This document shows positions 42,280-61,513 of a DNA stretch of 64,000 nt, one piece after another. The notes beneath the pieces are model-generated. The model did no database searches. It had not been told where the DNA came from and saw only the letters and a program-made list of their open reading frames with translations. Each line of letters opens with the position of its first letter. The first letter of the stretch is position 1. Origin of the DNA: Prevotella melaninogenica (lineage in GTDB: Bacteria > Bacteroidota > Bacteroidia > Bacteroidales > Bacteroidaceae); NCBI RefSeq assembly GCF_018127925.1, contig NZ_CP072347.1, positions 1,118,501 through 1,182,500 of the forward strand, in the 5' to 3' direction. Made by a program: the position numbers and the translations under genes.

Positions 42280-42741
42280 TTATTCCGGCTCTGGTTCTGG
42301 TCCTCCTCCTTCTTTCTTTTTCTTTTCTTCCTTTCCATCTTTAATCTTCCTCCTTGCAGGATTATCCACATCCACTTCAATTTTCTTCAGTGCATCAGCA
42401 ACCGCCGACTTCCAGCGAACGATGATGCGGGGATGCTTCAATGAGGCAGCAGACACATCCTTTGCCTCTTTCTCCATCTTCGATGGGATTGCGGTGCGGA
42501 TAGAGAAGATATCGCCTAAATCGAGTGAACCACCTAAGGTGACAACTTCTTTGACAATGTTTCGCAGCGTGATGAGCACATTGCGCACATCGCCTTCACT
42601 CAATGAGGTTTCACGCACAATACGTTCAACAAGCCATGCCTGTGAGAACTTGTTAATAGACTTTGGCTCTGCGCCATAAGCTTTCTGTCCTTTGCGAGGA
42701 CCTACGCCAAGCACGCGCTCGACAACTTTAAAACTAATCAT
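42280..42741 (-). CDS. HU-related DNA-binding protein with Lys-rich, Gly/Pro/Glu tail (cassette A)
   Basis: 153 aa. Residues about 28-115 follow the HU/IHF-related pattern of Bacteroidota (INKFSQAWLVERIVRETSLSEGDVRNVLITLRNIVKEVVTLGGSLDLGDIFSIRT, then PRIIVRWKSAVADAL). The first 25 residues are a basic arm (GVGPRKGQKAYG). The end is a lysine run followed by GGGPEPEPE. It is cytoplasmic and should bind and bend DNA. It is the last gene of cassette A, 146 bp after the lipoprotein gene across a large hairpin. Its partner in cassette B (60627-61073) has the same layout but distant sequence. A role in controlling the cassette is inferred from position only. Confidence 0.82.
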   Translation of the reverse strand: MISFKVVERVLGVGPRKGQKAYGAEPKSINKFSQAWLVERIVRETSLSEGDVRNVLITLRNIVKEVVTLGGSLDLGDIFSIRTAIPSKMEKEAKDVSAASLKHPRIIVRWKSAVADALKKIEVDVDNPARRKIKDGKEEKKKKEGGGPEPEPE

Positions 42742-42778
42742 GTTTTTAACGTATTGAATGAATAATGTTAAGTGTTTT

Positions 42779-42820
42779 ATATTCCCAATAGGAAAGCCAT
42801 CGGCTTCCTATTGGGAATAT
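42779..42820 (-). promoter_or_regulatory. 20-bp intercistronic hairpin, cassette A
   Basis: ATATTCCCAATAGGAAAGCC (42779-42798) pairs with 42802-42820 (one bulged base, 3-nt loop). Two further copies of the right arm follow at 42825-42843 and 42851-42865, the last decayed. The structure lies between the lipoprotein and HU-like genes. There is no T-run, so mRNA processing or stability control is more likely than termination. Confidence 0.8.
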
Positions 42821-42887
42821 CTTTGTATTCCTATTGGGAATACGATTACCTTCCTATTGAGATATGCTTTGCAGAGATATAGGGCAT

Positions 42888-44591
42888 TTAATATTCAACA
42901 AAAGCACGTGCGGAACCTACCATATTATGGTATGGGAAATATGTCCAGCGCAGGGATGGAGTTTCCACCATCATCCATCCTCCACAGGCATAATTACTGG
43001 GACTCGTTCGGTAAAAGAGTGTACTCGACCAGTATCGTCCACTCATAGCTGTGCCTCCAACGCTTGTGAAAGCATCATTCATCAATTCACTATACCATCC
43101 GTATGTAGTAGCAGTCTGGTAATGTGGTTGTATATCTGTTATGACGGTACTTCTGTCACCAAATCCAAGGTTATTATATAACACTCGGAAGTCACTGTTA
43201 GACGGCAGATACCATGTCAATGCTGGTGTTCCTGTATAGGTAATGCTATTGCCATAGTCAACACTTGCCTTAAAAGGAGGGAAGTCTGTATTCTTTCCTT
43301 TCACCTTGTCACCCCTGACAAGGCTTGTACTGTAACTTGCATCCCATGTCTCATCTTTACCACTGGTTGCATTGGTTGTAAGTGAAGTCTCTGGATGGTT
43401 GTCCATATCTACACTGTGTGTATTCGTGTTCAAATATAGAGGAGAGGTGTGGGCATAGTAAGGATCTGCCCAGACTCTATTGCCTCCTACCAGTGTCACA
43501 TTTTTCAATGCAACAGCCATGTGCTTGTTTTTATCTATGACTACTGCTATAGGTGTCTTCGTTCCACCACCAAAGGTTGTGTCCTTGAGTTTACCAACAG
43601 TTCCGTCACTCATCAGATACAGGAAAGAAGGCATCATCTTTACTTTGACCATATAGGTTTCATTAGAAACAACTGTCTTACTTGTCTTAGCAGGCTGAAC
43701 AATGCCATTAAGGGCTTCGTTGAACAAGATACCGCCTGTGAAGTTCAGCTTCAATGCTGCAAGATCTGTCCCTGGCAGAATGTAATGGTAATCAGCCGTG
43801 GAAGTATAAGCATAATTCTTGCCATAGGCTGAAGCCGAGTATTTGGTTTCAGTGCTGGCAGCAAAGTTATTGGCTTCGGCTGTCATTGGTGCCGAGTTCG
43901 TTGCTGTATAGCTTCCTGTAGCAGGATCGTATGAAACGGTCTGTGGAATATTGGCAGTAGTTTGTAGTGCGGCTGAAATAGCGGGAATATCCTTCTTTGC
44001 CGCCATCTGCGTGCGAACGCGTACACCAGCATGTTTGGATGCAATCGTAATGGTTTTATCTGTCGTACCAATAGCTACTTGTACCCGTCCAATGCGTGCT
44101 GTGCCGGCATCTGCCAAAGCTACTTCAAGCTGATTGCCGTTTGGGGTTACCTTGTCATTGAAGCAGACAAAAGTATAGGTGCGGTTATAACTTAGCTCTA
44201 TATGATCAGGTGTACTGGCATCAGGTGTAAATGTTGAACCACTGAAAGTTCCTTTCAGTTCGCCTCGCAATGCGCCACCATCATAGGCACGGATAGTATA
44301 ATGCACAGGAGTTGTCACGCTACGTGTGCGGGCAGCGATACTCGCTGTTGGATCGTTCTCTATGCTGGTCTCTGCTTCGCAGTCATTGAGCTCTGCTATG
44401 GTTGGCGTCTCCTTAGCGGAAACGGCACGTGTTGTCTGGTTGTCAGCTCCGAAATCCTCTTCTACTATGCGGAACTGTGCAGCCTGTACATACTCTCCTT
44501 TACCATTTGTGCTATCTTCATTGCTACAAGCCGTTGTCAGCATCACAAGCATTGCACAGGCTATTGATGATAAAATAGAAATCTTTTTCAT
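42888..44591 (-). CDS. Fimbrillin-like lipoprotein with lectin-like C-terminal domain (cassette A)
   Basis: 567 aa. The signal ends in a lipobox LTTAC. The N-terminal half has fimbrillin-type features (PVHYTIRAYDGGALRGELKGTF, YTFVCFNDKVTPNGNQLEVALADAGTARIGRVQVAIG, KHAGVRVRTQM). A central FLYLMSDGTVGKLKDTTFGGGTKTPIAVVIDKNKHMAVALK block leads to a C-terminal region with WYLPSNSDF, GRYWSST and ARAFVEY landmarks. These recall the FISUMP/DUF1566 lectin-like fold. It should be exported and lipid-anchored, probably on the cell surface. The partner at 58567-60354 is similar throughout. Ligand unknown. Confidence 0.82.
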   Translation of the reverse strand: MKKISILSSIACAMLVMLTTACSNEDSTNGKGEYVQAAQFRIVEEDFGADNQTTRAVSAKETPTIAELNDCEAETSIENDPTASIAARTRSVTTPVHYTIRAYDGGALRGELKGTFSGSTFTPDASTPDHIELSYNRTYTFVCFNDKVTPNGNQLEVALADAGTARIGRVQVAIGTTDKTITIASKHAGVRVRTQMAAKKDIPAISAALQTTANIPQTVSYDPATGSYTATNSAPMTAEANNFAASTETKYSASAYGKNYAYTSTADYHYILPGTDLAALKLNFTGGILFNEALNGIVQPAKTSKTVVSNETYMVKVKMMPSFLYLMSDGTVGKLKDTTFGGGTKTPIAVVIDKNKHMAVALKNVTLVGGNRVWADPYYAHTSPLYLNTNTHSVDMDNHPETSLTTNATSGKDETWDASYSTSLVRGDKVKGKNTDFPPFKASVDYGNSITYTGTPALTWYLPSNSDFRVLYNNLGFGDRSTVITDIQPHYQTATTYGWYSELMNDAFTSVGGTAMSGRYWSSTLFYRTSPSNYACGGWMMVETPSLRWTYFPYHNMVGSARAFVEY

Positions 44592-44630
44592 TGTCGTTGT
44601 TAATTAATTTTTACTATTCTAGGAATAAAC

Positions 44631-44819
44631 CTATTCAAACTCGTTCTCATCTCCGTCATCTATGGTCTGCTCATTGTCCCAATCTTCTTCTGTAAATCCA
44701 GGACCGCTGGGCATTGCTTTGATCTTAGGACTGGCACAGATCAAGTTTGCCGTCTCTACCTCGATAACCTTGCACCAAGGAGAGGCATAATGTTGTTTTC
44801 TTAATAATTCTTTCTTCAT
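44631..44819 (-). CDS. Small Y..P.C-type peptide (cassette A)
   Basis: 62 aa from ATG 44819; an upstream in-frame ATG (44852) precedes a less typical sequence. Pattern: basic start (MKKELLRKQ), then Y-x2-P-x-C-x-V-x-E-x-E (HYASPWCKVIEVE), ICAS, and an acidic Asp/Glu tail. The cassette B peptide shows the same order. No signal peptide is convincing. Two conserved Cys could bind metal, form a disulfide or be processed. It ends 39 bp before the lipoprotein gene. Function unknown. Confidence 0.72.
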   Translation of the reverse strand: MKKELLRKQHYASPWCKVIEVETANLICASPKIKAMPSGPGFTEEDWDNEQTIDDGDENEFE

Positions 44820-44886
44820 TTTTATAATTGTTTGTTGAATTAAAAATGCCATAAATCAACCCTTTCTTCAGCTGGAAAAAGGGCAT

Positions 44887-44925
44887 AAAAAAGCGAACAA
44901 AAGAAACTCCTAAAAGTCCTTTGTT
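44887..44925 (-). terminator. Leader terminator/attenuator, cassette A
   Basis: On the minus strand AACAAAGGA (44925-44917) pairs with TCTTTTGTT (44904-44896), followed by CGC and six T (44892-44887). Compared with cassette B one right-arm base changed C to T, keeping a G-U pair. It lies upstream of the coding genes, so it probably attenuates them. Confidence 0.82.
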
Positions 44926-44987
44926 TACAGGGGTTACGGCACGCTTCTCGCGCGCGTAAGCTGGAAGAAAAAAAATATGATTAAACG

Positions 44988-45116
44988 CTAGTAGCGCCTG
45001 TGTGTGTGTGTGTGTGTGTGTGTTAGCAAATTATTTGGATTGACCAAATATATAGTGCAAAAAGATGCAAAGAATCTGATAATTCTTTGCAGTATATCGT
45101 TGCCTTGATATGTCAT
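44988..45116 (-). CDS. Possible leader peptide, cassette A
   Basis: 42 codons. It starts at the conserved ATGACATAT and runs through the (CA) tract, encoding alternating Thr-His (THTHTHTH) before stopping. In cassette B the same start gives a 24-codon frame that stops before the tract. Only the first three codons are conserved, so translation is uncertain; it may simply be structured leader RNA. Confidence 0.3.
   Translation of the reverse strand: MTYQGNDILQRIIRFFASFCTIYLVNPNNLLTHTHTHTHRRY
44999..45023. repeat. (TG)12 dinucleotide tract in the cassette A leader
   Basis: 25 nt of uninterrupted TG. The matching tract in cassette B has (CA)10, so the length has changed since duplication. Such tracts slip during replication. 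Confidence 0.95.
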
Positions 45117-45136
45117 TGCTAATTGTTTCACGGCCG

Positions 45137-45167
45137 CAAAGGTAAGAAGATAAAATGGAATGAACAA
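45137..45167 (-). promoter_or_regulatory. Promoter of cassette A
   Basis: On the minus strand CCTTG (TTG 45167-45165), 20-nt spacer, TACCTTTG (45144-45137), then GCGGCCGTGAAACAATTAGC. It is base-for-base almost the same as the cassette B promoter. Confidence 0.88.
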
Positions 45168-45204
45168 GGAATCTGTAGAAAAAATAAGTCTCTTAAACAA
45201 AAAA

Positions 45205-57604: not shown

Positions 57605-57817
57605 AATAAAAAATCGGTTCATTAGAACACAATGTTTATTCTTGTTGTTAAGTTAATAACTATACAAAACCTATTTAGGTTCTAATGGACCGATTTAAGT
57701 TAAAGGTAAAAAGAGAAAGTTACCCTGTTACTATATCCTTCAGTCTCCTTATTCTGTCTTTCTACTTCTCCTTTTCTCGGTTATTCTGTCTAATTTCAAT
57801 ATTTCCGCAAGATTTCC
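57605..57817. other. Intergenic region after lpdA with an 18-bp inverted repeat
   Basis: AAATCGGTTCATTAGAAC (57611-57628) faces GTTCTAATGGACCGATTT (57679-57696) with one mismatch and a 50-nt loop. It may be a 3' end or a small foldback. No gene is seen up to the cassette B promoter. Confidence 0.6.
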
Positions 57818-57848
57818 TTGCCAATTCTAAAAAGATGTTTTACCTTTG
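57818..57848 (+). promoter_or_regulatory. Promoter of cassette B
   Basis: CCTTG (TTG 57818-57820), 20-nt spacer, TACCTTTG (57841-57848), then GCAGCCGTGAAACAATTAGC. Spacing and downstream bases match cassette A. Confidence 0.88.
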
Positions 57849-57868
57849 CAGCCGTGAAACAATTAGCA

Positions 57869-57943
57869 ATGACATATCCAGCCAATCCAGCACAGCAAAG
57901 AAACTTTGATTTCTTTGCCTTTTTAGTGCTTTATATTTGGTAG
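57869..57943 (+). CDS. Possible leader peptide, cassette B
   Basis: 24 codons from the conserved ATGACATAT to TAG, encoding MTYPANPAQQRNFDFFAFLV and four more residues. The 8-bp hairpin lies inside it. A ribosome reading this frame could affect folding of the leader, but only the start is shared with cassette A. Confidence 0.3.
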   Translation: MTYPANPAQQRNFDFFAFLVLYIW

Positions 57944-57960
57944 TTTCAGATATTTTGCTA

Positions 57961-57981
57961 ACACACACACACACACACACA
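57961..57981. repeat. (CA)10 dinucleotide tract in the cassette B leader
   Basis: 21 nt of uninterrupted AC, in the same place as the (TG)12 tract of cassette A but shorter. Confidence 0.95.
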
Positions 57982-58054
57982 GGCGCACCTAGCGTTTAAT
58001 CATACTTTTTTTCTTCCAGCCTACGCGCGCGCGAAGCGTGCCGTAACGCTTGTA

Positions 58055-58093
58055 AACAAAGGACTTCACGGAGTTTCCTTTGTTCGCTTTTTT
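58055..58093 (+). terminator. Leader terminator/attenuator, cassette B
   Basis: AACAAAGGA (58055-58063) pairs with TCCTTTGTT (58076-58084), with a further CT/AG pair inside, then CGC and six T (58088-58093). It stands 210 nt before the first coding gene. Confidence 0.85.
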
Positions 58094-58305
58094 GTGCCCT
58101 TTTTGAAGACCGCTAAAACGCAAAATATAGCAATTTTTTCGAGTATAAAATCAAACTTACATAGTGCCACAGAGCATCAGGAGGAGGAGATAATTCATTG
58201 TTTTAACAACTTTTCTTATGCTTTCGTCTCTCTCTTGAACTCTGTGACACGAAGTAAAGCAAGTGAGAATCATTAATAATAACTATTTTTTAATCAATTA
58301 AAGCA

Positions 58306-58524
58306 ATGAGAAAAAAGAAAGATTATGAACGACCCGAGTGTAACGTTCACGAAATGGAGACAGAAACATTTATCTGTACATCTGTCACTCCCAATGCAAG
58401 TGCCTCACAACATCAATGGAGCTATGATGATAAGGGCGTACATGAAGTAGGATCTATTCTTCTAGGAGATGAAACGACTGTTGCTCCAGCTAAAAGAAAC
58501 TATTTTGAAGAGGATGAAGACTAA
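58306..58524 (+). CDS. Small Y..P.C-type peptide (cassette B)
   Basis: 72 aa. Basic start MRKKKD, then Y-x2-P-x-C-x-V-x-E-x-E (YERPECNVHEMETE), ICTS, a middle part with QHQWSYDD, and an acidic end FEEDED. Same order as the cassette A peptide although overall identity is low. It starts about 200 nt after the leader terminator and ends 42 bp before the lipoprotein gene. Function unknown; two conserved Cys are the main clue. Confidence 0.75.
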   Translation: MRKKKDYERPECNVHEMETETFICTSVTPNASASQHQWSYDDKGVHEVGSILLGDETTVAPAKRNYFEEDED

Positions 58525-58566
58525 AGGACCCTCTTTGCAGAAATCACTAATTAAAAAGAACGAACA

Positions 58567-60354
58567 ATGAAGAAACAAACGATTTTATCAAGTATCTTAG
58601 GCATCGTTTTGCTGGCATTGACAGCATGTAGCAACAATGATGAGAATGCTATTGAAAATGGAAAAGTTGATGTTGCGCAAAGAATAGAGTTTAAAGTAAA
58701 CTTTGCCGATTATAATACCGAACAAAGTGTAAACGTAACTCGTGCACCCAAAGAGGATATTAAACTCGCGAAGAGTGATATAGACCTTGGTAATGGTATT
58801 GTTGCAGAATGCACTTTGCAACGTGATACCGTTAAACAAGAACATGCCCCACGCACACGTGCCTTATATAGTACTTTCGCATACACTATGCTGGCATTTG
58901 ATGCCTCAACTCATGCTTACAAGGGCAGCGTAACAGGAAGCGTAACTTATAGTGGTGGTAATTGGGATTTTACCCCGACCTCTTCTAATGAAAGCATAAG
59001 TCTTACTCCAGGTACTTACGACTTTGTCCTCTATAATGACAAGGTGACACGTAGCGGTAATAATCTTACCGTAACTCAAGCAAACGCAGCTGATGCATGG
59101 ATAGGACGCACAACACAGGTGATTACCGCTACTCCTAGAAAGCAAAAGGTTGCATTTACAATGAAACATGCAGGGGCCGTAGTTAAAATTCGATTAGAAG
59201 GGTATGGCGAGTTTGATATGGCAAATACCACTGGCGTACTTTCTTCTATAAATAGCACAGCTATCCCTAGTTCTGCCGTATATGATGCTGCTAACGATTC
59301 TTGGACTATGGGAACAGGTACAGCAGTATCATCTAATACAACATTCTCGTCTACTTTGGGTGAGATGGATCCATGGGCTAGTAATACTCTGGTTTATCGT
59401 GCTATCAGCAGTGAGATTGCCTTTCTTCCATCAACAGATGTCTCAAAGTTAAAATTCACGTTTACCAATGGTAAATATTATAATCTCAATTTAGCAGGTG
59501 CAGGACTTATTTTCAATCCTGCCTCTCCATTAAAGTTAGATAAAAATGGCTCTTATATACTTAATATTAAGTTGAAAAAGAATTTTATTTATCTGATGAG
59601 TGATGGAACAAGAGGCTTCTTTAAAGATACCACCTATGGTGGAGGGACAAAGACACCTATTGCTGTTGTTGTAAGTCGTAGCAAGCATTTGGCTATCGCT
59701 CTAACTGATGCTAATAACGGAAATCCATGTGACTGGTGTTCTACTGGATCTACGTATACATCAACCCCTTACAATAAGAGTGCCGTAGGTAAAAATACGT
59801 TTGACCAAACTTCCTTATATAATGGTTATTCTGAAACTTGGGATGCCTCTGCTAGTACAGATAATGTGACCGTAAAGGGAACAAGTAGTGATTTCCCTGC
59901 TTTCAAAGCAGCCGCAGAATATACTCCGACTTTACCGGCAGGAGTACAACTCACAGGAAAGATGGTAGGTAAAAAATGGTTTTTACCATCTTTAGGAGAA
60001 TGGAAACTTGCTTGTTTTGAGTTAGGGGGTAATGATGATTCTTCAGGTATGCAGAATTATCAAACAGGTATTGGACATCTTCAAGGATACTATTCTTGGT
60101 GGTATGATCTTTTAGCAACAGAAGCTTTTACACAAGTAGGTGGGACTTCCTTCACGGAAGATCCTAGAGTATCACAGCCTGTTAGCGACTATTATTGGTC
60201 TAGTTCTGAAAGTAGTGAGAATGGTTCATTTTATTATCCTTGCACGATTTATGGTGTCCTTCATGGTTTCAGATGGTATTGGGCAGGTTATAACGGTAAT
60301 ACAACTGGTAGTACGCTGCTTCATGTCCGCCCTTTCATTCATTATGACGAATAG
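58567..60354 (+). CDS. Fimbrillin-like lipoprotein with lectin-like C-terminal domain (cassette B)
   Basis: 595 aa. Lipobox ALTAC in the signal. Fimbrillin-type N-terminal half (TFAYTMLAFDASTHAYKGSVTGS, YDFVLYNDKVTRSGNNLTV, KHAGAVVKIRLEGYG). A block shared with cassette A (FIYLMSDGTRGFFKDTTYGGGTKTPIAVVVSRSKHLAIAL) leads to a C-terminal region with KKWFLPSLGEWKLA, YYWSSSES and LLHVRPFIHY, landmarks of FISUMP/DUF1566 lectin-like domains. Probably a surface adhesin or pilus-tip-like lipoprotein; ligand unknown. Confidence 0.83.
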   Translation: MKKQTILSSILGIVLLALTACSNNDENAIENGKVDVAQRIEFKVNFADYNTEQSVNVTRAPKEDIKLAKSDIDLGNGIVAECTLQRDTVKQEHAPRTRALYSTFAYTMLAFDASTHAYKGSVTGSVTYSGGNWDFTPTSSNESISLTPGTYDFVLYNDKVTRSGNNLTVTQANAADAWIGRTTQVITATPRKQKVAFTMKHAGAVVKIRLEGYGEFDMANTTGVLSSINSTAIPSSAVYDAANDSWTMGTGTAVSSNTTFSSTLGEMDPWASNTLVYRAISSEIAFLPSTDVSKLKFTFTNGKYYNLNLAGAGLIFNPASPLKLDKNGSYILNIKLKKNFIYLMSDGTRGFFKDTTYGGGTKTPIAVVVSRSKHLAIALTDANNGNPCDWCSTGSTYTSTPYNKSAVGKNTFDQTSLYNGYSETWDASASTDNVTVKGTSSDFPAFKAAAEYTPTLPAGVQLTGKMVGKKWFLPSLGEWKLACFELGGNDDSSGMQNYQTGIGHLQGYYSWWYDLLATEAFTQVGGTSFTEDPRVSQPVSDYYWSSSESSENGSFYYPCTIYGVLHGFRWYWAGYNGNTTGSTLLHVRPFIHYDE

Positions 60355-60402
60355 TCAATCAGGGGTATACTGCTTGTAAAAAAGAAGCATGCGGACAGCG
60401 GA

Positions 60403-60515
60403 AAATTTATATACGGTTCCCCGTAAATTTATATACGGTTAGAAATTTACGGGGAAGCGGTTAGAAATAAATTTATATCAAATAAAAATTTTCGGCTAAC
60501 CGTATATAATTTTTT
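60403..60515 (+). promoter_or_regulatory. Structured intercistronic RNA with competing stems, cassette B
   Basis: Stem 1: CCCCGTAAATTT (60419-60430) with AAATTTACGGGG (60443-60454), 12 perfect pairs. Stem 2: TTATATACGGTTAG (60429-60442) with CTAACCGTATATAA (60496-60509), 14 perfect pairs, followed by six T. Stem 2 uses the loop of stem 1, so the two form a pseudoknot or exclude each other. A spare copy of the stem 2 left arm lies at 60403-60418. It could act as a terminator/antiterminator before the HU-like gene. Confidence 0.82.
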
Positions 60516-60626
60516 CTTTGACCTTTGGGCTTTGAATTTTGACCTTTGAATATTGTTTTTTTGAGCATTAAGAAGTGCTGCAAAGTACAGTACGATAATA
60601 ATTAATAATTTAAATCTTATAACCAA

Positions 60627-61073
60627 ATGAAAATCAAAATGGTTCAGCGGAAGAATCCGCAAAAGAAATCGGAAGTGAAGTATTATGCTAGTCCTGTCAA
60701 TGCTGGTAAGAAGACCCTACGGGATATTGCGCACGACATTGCGGGGCGTTCTTCGTTGACACGTGGTGATATCGAAAACGTGCTGGCAAACTTTATTGAT
60801 TGCCTGCCTCATTACCTCCGCGATGGTTTTAGTGTACAGCTGGGCGAGTTTGGCACGATGCGCCTGACACTTTCAAGCGAGGGGGCTGCGACGGTAAAGG
60901 CTTTTAAGATAGAGACTATCAAGCCACGCGTAACATTTACGCCAGGTGTGGAACTAAAGGCCGCTTTGCGCGAAAACTCGTATGAGACGGTGAAGGAGGA
61001 AAACTCTAATTCAAAAACCTCTCATAAAGACAAGAAAGGCGGAGAGAATCCTGGACCTGTGCCAGAAGACTAA
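60627..61073 (+). CDS. HU-related DNA-binding protein with Lys-rich, Gly/Pro/Glu tail (cassette B)
   Basis: 148 aa; ATG 60639 is an alternative start. It fits the Bacteroidota HU-related family: VKYYASPVNAGKKTLRDIAHDIAGRSSLTRGDIENVLANFIDCLPHYLRDGFSVQLGEFGTMRLTL, then PRVTFTPGVELKAALRE. The end is HKDKKGGENPGPVPED, the same basic-then-Gly/Pro/Glu plan as in cassette A. It is cytoplasmic and predicted to bind DNA. It is last in the cassette, 272 bp after the lipoprotein gene across a regulatory RNA. Confidence 0.87.
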   Translation: MKIKMVQRKNPQKKSEVKYYASPVNAGKKTLRDIAHDIAGRSSLTRGDIENVLANFIDCLPHYLRDGFSVQLGEFGTMRLTLSSEGAATVKAFKIETIKPRVTFTPGVELKAALRENSYETVKEENSNSKTSHKDKKGGENPGPVPED

Positions 61074-61113
61074 AAGAAGCGTTGACTGATTGGTCAAGGA
61101 TAAACGAAAAAGA

Positions 61114-61150
61114 GTTCGCGAACAAATCGGAAATTGTTCGCGAACAATTT
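61114..61150 (+). terminator. Hairpin after the cassette B HU-like gene
   Basis: GTTCGCGAACAA (61114-61125) pairs perfectly with TTGTTCGCGAAC (61134-61145), 8-nt loop, followed by AATTTT. Each arm is itself a GTTCGCGAAC palindrome, so it might also be a protein-binding site. Confidence 0.7.
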
Positions 61151-61245: not shown

Positions 61246-61513
61246 GAAAGGATACAGATTTAGTCGTATCGATTCGATTGGGATAGTCATCAAATAAATT
61301 AGAAAACCCGAGATGACTTCTTTTGTTAATGGCGGGCCACATAAATCGCATTTCAGCGACTAAGCCGCAAGGTCAGTGGATTACAAAGACGAGGAGCTCT
61401 CTTATCATTGATACTCGGACTTTTCATCACATCGTCGATACGACTTTTCTAATTCCCATTTCTTTAAAGAAGAGGGATTGAGGTGGGGTTTCCAAGTGAT
61501 TCCCCACCTTTTT
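61246..61513 (+). ncRNA. Candidate structured non-coding RNA (~268 nt)
   Basis: Bounded by a strong promoter and an intrinsic terminator. AGTCGTATCGA (61262-61272) is complementary to TCGATACGACT (61435-61445), and AATTAGAAAA (61297-61306) to TTTTCTAATT (61445-61454). The order implies a long-range pseudoknot or alternative folds. Inside, AGTCATC/GATGACT and TCGC/GCGA hairpins are visible. The longest frame from its ATGACT is 16 codons. It has no landmarks of tmRNA, RNase P RNA, SRP RNA or an FMN riboswitch. It could be a free RNA or the 5' part of the ribE transcript. Confidence 0.6.
61481..61513 (+). terminator. Terminator of the candidate RNA
   Basis: AGGTGGGG (61481-61488) pairs with CCCCACCT (61502-61509), then a T-run to 61513. 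Confidence 0.9.

Follow-up and report, generated by a model that had tools for sequence, protein, structure and literature searches.

In this study, we analysed a stretch of 64,000 nucleotides (nt) from Prevotella melaninogenica (contig NZ_CP072347.1, positions 1,118,501 to 1,182,500; hereafter the window), which encodes a promoter, a leader, a small peptide, a lipoprotein and an HU-like protein in this order twice, once on the forward strand (copy B, 57814–61073) and once inverted (copy A, 42280–45171). The initial annotation had described this duplicated order correctly. It was silent on the (CA)n repeat of the leader, on the reading-frame rule described below, on a second leader class with (CT)n and on the leader open reading frame (ORF) of copy B being broken upstream of the repeat. 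We propose that each such module is a phase-variable surface-protein operon under a transcription attenuator that would be switched by the repeat.

In copy B (all features on the + strand), the promoter was predicted by sequence match at 57814–57848 (TTG ... TTACCTTTG); we take its motif, like that of copy A, to be of the Bacteroidota type, with a predicted start. Behind it, a leader ORF of 29 codons opens with GTG and ends with TAG (57854–57943). It contains hairpin A plus T-run, a terminator-like element inside the type-1 leader (57895–57924), and it is truncated because this T-run lacks one T that the other copies of its subtype have. Hairpin B (57932–57952, TTTGGT...TCA) lies directly before the dinucleotide repeat (AC)10A at 57961–57981, the proposed slippage switch. 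A post-repeat double stop (57982–57999), consisting of TAG at 57990–57992 and TAA at 57997–57999, closes two of the three frames, and the third is open past hairpin D as far as 58276. Hairpin C (TACGCGCG...CGTGCCGTA) spans 58022–58045, followed by hairpin D, the proposed attenuator, at 58055–58093 (AACAAAGGA...TCCTTTGTT CGC TTTTTT, T6). Further downstream lie the small peptide ORF with the motif Y..P.C (58306–58524, 72 amino acids, aa), the lipoprotein gene (58567–60354, 595 aa, with a fimbrillin-like domain, PF13149, at residues 122–338), a gap with short palindromic repeats and no promoter match (60355–60626) and the gene of the HU-HIG protein (60627–61073, 148 aa, PF18291 and TIGR01201).

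Copy A (all features on the − strand) displays the same layout, with the promoter at 45137–45171, again a sequence match, and a leader ORF (44988–45131) that starts with GTG, crosses the repeat (AC)12A at 44999–45023 and stops 8 nt beyond it. Its double stop occupies 44981–44998 (TAG 44988–44990, TAA 44981–44983), while the third frame is open until the stop at 44725–44727. Hairpin C lies at 44935–44958 (fold of a 46-nt stretch, z −3.15). Hairpin D with T6 lies at 44887–44925 (3′ arm TTTCTTTTGTT); one of its stem positions is unlike copy B, and a strict pattern missed it. The small peptide measures 62 aa from an internal ATG (44631–44819; 73 aa from 44852 in the ORF list), and the lipoprotein (42888–44591, 567 aa) and the HU-HIG protein (42280–42741, 153 aa) follow. 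From leader start to peptide, copy A spans 312 nt and copy B 452 nt. An Rfam scan of the window at gathering thresholds gave only the Bacteroidales-1 RNA, a suggested 6S RNA, immediately 3′ of copy B (61262–61451, + strand, 112 bits), and the leader was therefore rejected as a member of a known RNA family.

With the 316-nt leader of copy B as query, a search of the 3.36-Mb genome to which the window belongs (2 contigs) gave 40 strong matches, besides two extra 24-nt matches that are short reverse matches to hairpin A. Since this search scored 40 candidates, further leaders were sought via the HU genes. Exactly one HU-HIG gene lies within 4.5 kb downstream on the same strand in 40/40 of these units, an association that is not due to chance. 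PF18291 matched 65 times in the genome, a very strong expansion of HU-HIG genes within one genome. Among the 25 matches remaining besides the 40 units, one (L098) lies behind another leader of the same type and 15 behind a second leader class, which places 56 of the 65 inside leader units. This second class (type 2) carries (CT)n where the first (type 1) carries (CA)n. An anchored census of repeat patterns, which detects arrays of about 6.5 units or more starting in one phase only, returned 41 CA and 19 CT arrays, every one within such a leader: 40 of the CA arrays fall inside the 40 leader intervals and the last one in L098, and the CT arrays mark one type-2 locus each (L088, L089, L091–L094, L096, L099–L101, L103, L104, L108, L109, L144–L147 and L152). 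The genome thus holds at least 60 leaders, 41 of type 1 and 19 of type 2. Of these 60, 58 are followed by a small ORF with Y..P.[CSI], 57 by a first large ORF with a lipobox-like match (the lipoprotein profile matches behind 55) and 57, as judged with a profile built from the units, by an HU-like ORF, where intact, interrupted and remnant genes were counted alike; the HU ORF of U20 is interrupted by a stop and that of L144 is a 69-aa remnant. In L145, an ORF of 410 aa that by eye looks like a transposase sits about 2.4 kb after the repeat, at the position expected for the HU gene. Between hairpin D and the peptide, 29 of the 41 type-1 units have an extra conserved hairpin without T-run (GGCAGGCAG...CTGTCTGCCTG), in place of which copy B has a different stem.

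Both leader types share a design in which one reading frame leads into the repeat. The type-1 ORF opens with GTG (ATG in U16) 4–5 nt after the −7 box and enters (CA)n; the type-2 ORF starts with ATG, mostly ends in NYLVVPNN..LSLS and enters (CT)n, next to a hairpin B with a 9-bp stem (ATTATTTGG/CCAAATAAT, read by eye). In most leaders, both other frames are stopped within about 40 nt upstream of the repeat, so that translation could enter the repeat in one frame only. Among 66 leaders of the (CT)n and distant (CA)n kinds, which vary in length, 65 have an ORF that runs from a start codon to the repeat in the repeat's frame. These upstream stops largely force this modulo-3 result, which consequently does not count as independent evidence on its own. 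Within this genome, the leader ORF is broken before the repeat in two cases, U01 (copy B) and L100. The view of the leader as a coding gene only was demoted, since hairpin B and the frame into the repeat are kept across leader families whose early parts differ.

Beyond the repeat, we scored a leader as following the frame rule if one frame was open to at least +110 and the two others were closed by +30. Judged by sequence only, 57 of 60 leaders of this genome fit, as did 40 of 49 leaders from other genomes, a set that includes two identical duplicates and excludes leaders cut by a contig end. When leaders were grouped into 18 sequence clusters, 12 representatives fitted the rule, compared to 8.5% in dinucleotide shuffles (p 1.7e-9); because the leaders are homologous, this is the test to trust. 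The repeat, the open leader frame and the pattern of one open and two closed frames thus recur in nearly all leaders of this genome and across species.

By motif search, 103 of 109 leaders have a D-type hairpin (CAAAGG ... CCTTTG), which ends about 112 nt after the repeat. In these 103, outer pair 2 is A–T in 86 and G–C in 12, outer pair 3 is A–T in 80 and G–C in 12, and both pairs change together. Folding of 95 leaders, comprising this genome and the loci from the exact-pattern search for type 2, gave a hairpin plus T-run in 82, with the end of the T-run at a median of +112. Strong hairpins are present in L099 (−22.5 kcal/mol) and L147 (−20.4 kcal/mol) of this genome, in P. bivia (−19.4 kcal/mol) and in P. 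vespertina L194 (−15.3 kcal/mol). With one frame passing this terminator-like hairpin and two stopping within 30 nt, slippage by a single repeat unit would switch attenuation.

We therefore propose a model, to which we assign a probability of roughly 0.74, in which transcription would begin at the conserved promoter and a ribosome would translate the leader ORF and enter the repeat, be it (CA)n or (CT)n. With a repeat number that sets the open frame, the ribosome would pass hairpins C and D, the terminator could not form, and peptide, lipoprotein and HU-like protein would be made (ON). In the two other frames, it would stop within 30 nt after the repeat, hairpin D would form and transcription would end (OFF). 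The frame would change whenever one 2-bp unit is gained or lost by strand slippage. With about 60 units, few of them ON at once, the surface repertoire would be large, and a clone would show a small part of it that keeps changing. The shared leader may moreover be an anchor at which recombination exchanges the cargo of a fixed site. Leader translation, termination at hairpin D, slippage within a clone, expression differences, surface display and recombination at the leader are the steps that we infer here. The attenuation-type control suggested by the initial annotation is supported and refined: a simple sequence repeat appears to switch the attenuator through the reading frame, and the units, besides sharing their control, would therefore vary one by one through slippage.

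Several observations weigh against this model. The start codon of type 1 (GTG; ATG in U16) is a prediction only. Exceptions to the frame rule amount to three of 60 leaders here (U16, U40 and L145) and nine of 49 elsewhere, and the leaders are related, so that counts within the genome are not independent. Regarding hairpin D, outer pair 4 is unpaired (A and C) in 80 of 103 leaders and A–T or C–G in 15. By the folding test, 13 of the 95 leaders showed no hairpin plus T-run, and its energy, with a median of −10.1 kcal/mol over the 82 and values down to −22.5, is modest in most leaders of this genome. The 82-nt C–D region of copy B folds no better than shuffled sequences (z −0.75), and in both copies of the window, a generic terminator scan picked hairpin A, which lies within the type-1 leader ORF, instead of hairpin D.

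As hairpin D is weak in most leaders here and was missed by the scan, Rho-dependent polarity stays a rival for the OFF step. Under the same frame switch, Rho would then act on the untranslated leader, and ribosomes in the open frame would protect the RNA; that OFF frames leave a long untranslated stretch ahead of the peptide gene would suit such a mechanism. However, 103 of 109 leaders have a hairpin at a similar distance, its outer pairs co-change and it is highly stable in some leaders, which points to a structural terminator, and we hold the Rho variant to be unlikely.

Given the proposed attenuator, the state of each unit can be predicted. The read-through frame is set in five of 58 intact leaders of this genome (U03, U27, U33, L096 and L103) and not in the other 53, with one third expected (p 1.8e-5), and in three of 45 leaders of other genomes, again with one third expected (p 4.4e-5); the latter count leaves out two identical leaders, an ambiguous one (L137, stop at +75) and leaders truncated at a contig end, and both p values are to be read with the units not being fully independent. 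For both copies of the window, OFF is predicted: in copy B, the T missing from the T-run makes the leader stop at 57941–57943, and in copy A, the repeat leads to the stop at 44988–44990.

The repeat unit, a dinucleotide and hence not a multiple of three, differs in number among copies and species. Type-1 repeats range from 13 to 77 nt across 40 units with flanks of about 90% identity, and at orthologous sites repeat lengths of 25 vs 31 (P. jejuni L186 and L091), 23 vs 34 (L189 and L100) and 8 vs 48 (P. veroralis L188 and L103) were found. Such wide variation would also be compatible with repeat length acting via DNA or RNA spacing, irrespective of frame, an action reported for GAA repeats upstream of Mycoplasma vlhA genes. 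Repeats close to the promoters of lipoprotein genes have a precedent in this family: in vlhA of Mycoplasma gallisepticum, many lipoprotein genes each have a variable simple repeat in their control region, as here, although it is reportedly a GAA repeat of the promoter and not part of a translated leader (PMC6258824). The repeats described here lie about 110–280 nt after the −7 box, inside the predicted transcript. Furthermore, leaders of unrelated sequence also have two closing stops and only one open frame, and CA and CT leaders both keep this frame design. We consequently regard spacing as improbable.

In contrast to the control region, the cargo diverges strongly. When type-1 units were compared in 200 randomly drawn pairs, identity had a median of 88% for the leader before and 91% after the repeat, 46% for the peptide, 53% for the lipoprotein and 30% for the HU protein (measurable in 152 pairs). 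This agrees with the notion of the initial annotation that control region and promoter are more alike than the proteins, and it supports a repeated system with conserved control and diversifying surface-protein cargo. Seven pairs of orthologous sites were compared. Between P. veroralis L188 and L103 of this genome, identity reaches 95% and 97% in the flanks and 94% and 97% in the leader, whereas the peptide is at 33%, the lipoprotein at 24% (a partial ORF of 392 aa in P. veroralis) and the HU protein at 51%; nucleotide homology stops just past the leader and returns after the HU gene. The cargo seems to have been replaced at this site, one boundary being the leader. Conserved cargo at the L186–L091 site (lipoprotein 90%, peptide 78%) counts against such replacement. 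At one site, a type-1 leader (U20) is present here and a type-2 leader in P. veroralis and P. vespertina. The flanks at three sites are 93–94.5% identical between the window's genome and P. jejuni. One could regard the leaders only as recombination anchors for cassette exchange, with the repeats as by-products and constant expression, for which the L188–L103 boundaries would speak. Since this would leave the open leader frame, the frame rule and the rarity of the read-through frame unexplained, we consider it the most improbable of the explanations weighed here.

Turning to the cargo itself, most first genes that were read begin, by eye, like secreted proteins or lipoproteins. The fimbrillin-like character given to the lipoproteins in the initial annotation holds for copy B (PF13149 at 33.5 bits, cut-off 27) and not for the copy A lipoprotein, which matches no family above cut-off. 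At E 0.01, two of 22 unit lipoproteins match PF13149. With such weak profile support, fimbriae proper were demoted as an interpretation; compared to Mfa-like fimbrillins (PF13149) and tip adhesins, copy B passes the cut-off, and the units here are single dispersed cassettes. The HU-like assignment was confirmed for both copies, with PF18291 at 87.3 bits in copy B and 43.6 bits in copy A (cut-off 26.2). For TIGR01201, an HU-related family with a cut-off of 68.6, copy B reaches 73.8 and copy A stays below at 64.9. Domain and size match HU-HIG (PF18291) and TIGR01201 proteins, with one gene per surface cassette here. The initial annotation had considered a leader in front of unrelated genes as an argument against a defined system, and this was observed in part: leucine-rich repeat (LRR)/BspA-like proteins, assigned by eye, lie behind L146, L152 and the G017 loci L134 and L135. 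LRR/BspA-like secreted proteins, likewise assigned by eye, occur behind the same kind of leader at these four loci and at L204; L152 and L134 also carry an HU gene.

Between lipoprotein and HU gene, the gap measures 334 nt on average in 54 units. A −33/−7 promoter match was found in none of these 54 gaps (0.87 expected), a −7 match in six (7.1 expected) and a terminator-like site in three. Separate HU promoters, which the initial annotation had named as evidence against a common unit, were rejected on these promoter counts. The HU gene is thus probably part of the same transcript as its leader unit, and, with no promoter excess and few terminators in the gap, HU is probably made only when the unit is ON. 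The gaps (60355–60626 in copy B, 42742–42887 in copy A, and others) contain a short palindrome-like motif that is present several times and varies in sequence from unit to unit; examples read by eye in eight gaps are TTCCCAATAGGAA in copy A, AATTTCTAACCCGTTAGAAATT in U02 and TACCCAGCNGCTGGGTA in L109.

To follow the system over species, we searched for the type-2 core with at most two mismatches, which is present in 12 of the 398 genomes searched in the genus, among them that of the window. The exact degenerate pattern gave 43 stretches under 15 organism labels, namely 13 isolates of Prevotella, Hallella and Hoylesella and two Prevotellaceae metagenome bins. Among loci with at least 2500 bases after the repeat, the first gene is usually a lipoprotein-like ORF behind a small peptide and sometimes LRR/BspA-like (by eye). 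An HU gene follows this first gene in three of four P. jejuni rows with a readable first gene, in five of six of P. veroralis, in two of seven of P. vespertina and in one of four of G017; within 1 kb after the first gene, none was seen in the rows of P. bivia, P. brunnea, Hoylesella timonensis, BV3P1, OH937 and oral taxon 376. The HU-like gene as a defining part, as put forward in the initial annotation, is thus not supported, and HU as the core of the system was rejected; as judged from these units, the gene is accessory. This bears on a further explanation, in which each unit's HU-like protein would be the main regulator, selecting the expressed unit by binding to the leader or to the gap palindromes. 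An HU gene behind nearly every leader in this genome and palindromes differing between units would fit such a role, yet the same leader and frame rule occur in species whose units, as read, are without HU, and we deem it as improbable as an effect of spacing. A wider scheme appears doubtful, if less so: about 60 cassettes would share one attenuator that serves both as frame switch and as recombination anchor, and the HU-like chromatin protein of each expressed unit would bias expression or exchange of the others, so that one or few surface proteins are present per cell.

Phase variation in Bacteroidota is mainly known through DNA inversion. The invertible promoters of Bacteroides work by inversion through recombinases, and to our knowledge involve neither repeat slippage nor leader translation. 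They likewise vary the surface, with capsule and SusC/D systems as examples, within the same bacterial order (review PMC11868660). A term search of this 2025 review returned none of the words leader, gallolyticus and terminator. The closest resemblance is found in the pil1 locus of Streptococcus gallolyticus, for which Danne et al. (2014, PMC3894217) showed that the repeat number alters the length of the leader peptide and that ribosomes reaching the terminator raise transcription. As in pil1 and pil3, promoter, leader ORF with a repeat unit that is not a multiple of three, stem-loop terminator (a candidate one here) and surface-structure operon follow each other, and the repeat number decides whether the ribosome stops short of the terminator or close to, in or past it, which we predict here by sequence alone (PMC3894217). 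In contrast, pil1 and pil3 have a GCAGA pentanucleotide at two pilus loci of Streptococcus, with a close relative also mentioned, compared to CA or CT at about 60 loci in another phylum; in addition, one pil1 frame is short (low) and two end next to or in the terminator (high), whereas here two stop early and one runs through (PMC3894217). A relation between the two systems in sequence would not be expected. By anatomy, that is the leader ORF with repeat, the unit not divisible by three and the frame-decided stop, membership in the pil1 kind is good. An open-access literature search by title and abstract start, with most subscription papers outside it, gave no report for Prevotella, and in the searchable papers the mechanism is reported only for pilus loci of S. 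gallolyticus and a close relative.

If the proposed mechanism is true, it would extend repeat-slippage phase variation with leader attenuation to Bacteroidota. The repeat would be a random reading-frame switch for each cassette, so that different cells show different coats, and oral and mucosal Prevotella would vary their coat at about 60 loci at once. With ON and OFF being readable from the repeat number, a genome, or long reads of a sample, would suffice to predict the state of every unit, and surface variation in a dominant group of human commensals would become directly measurable.

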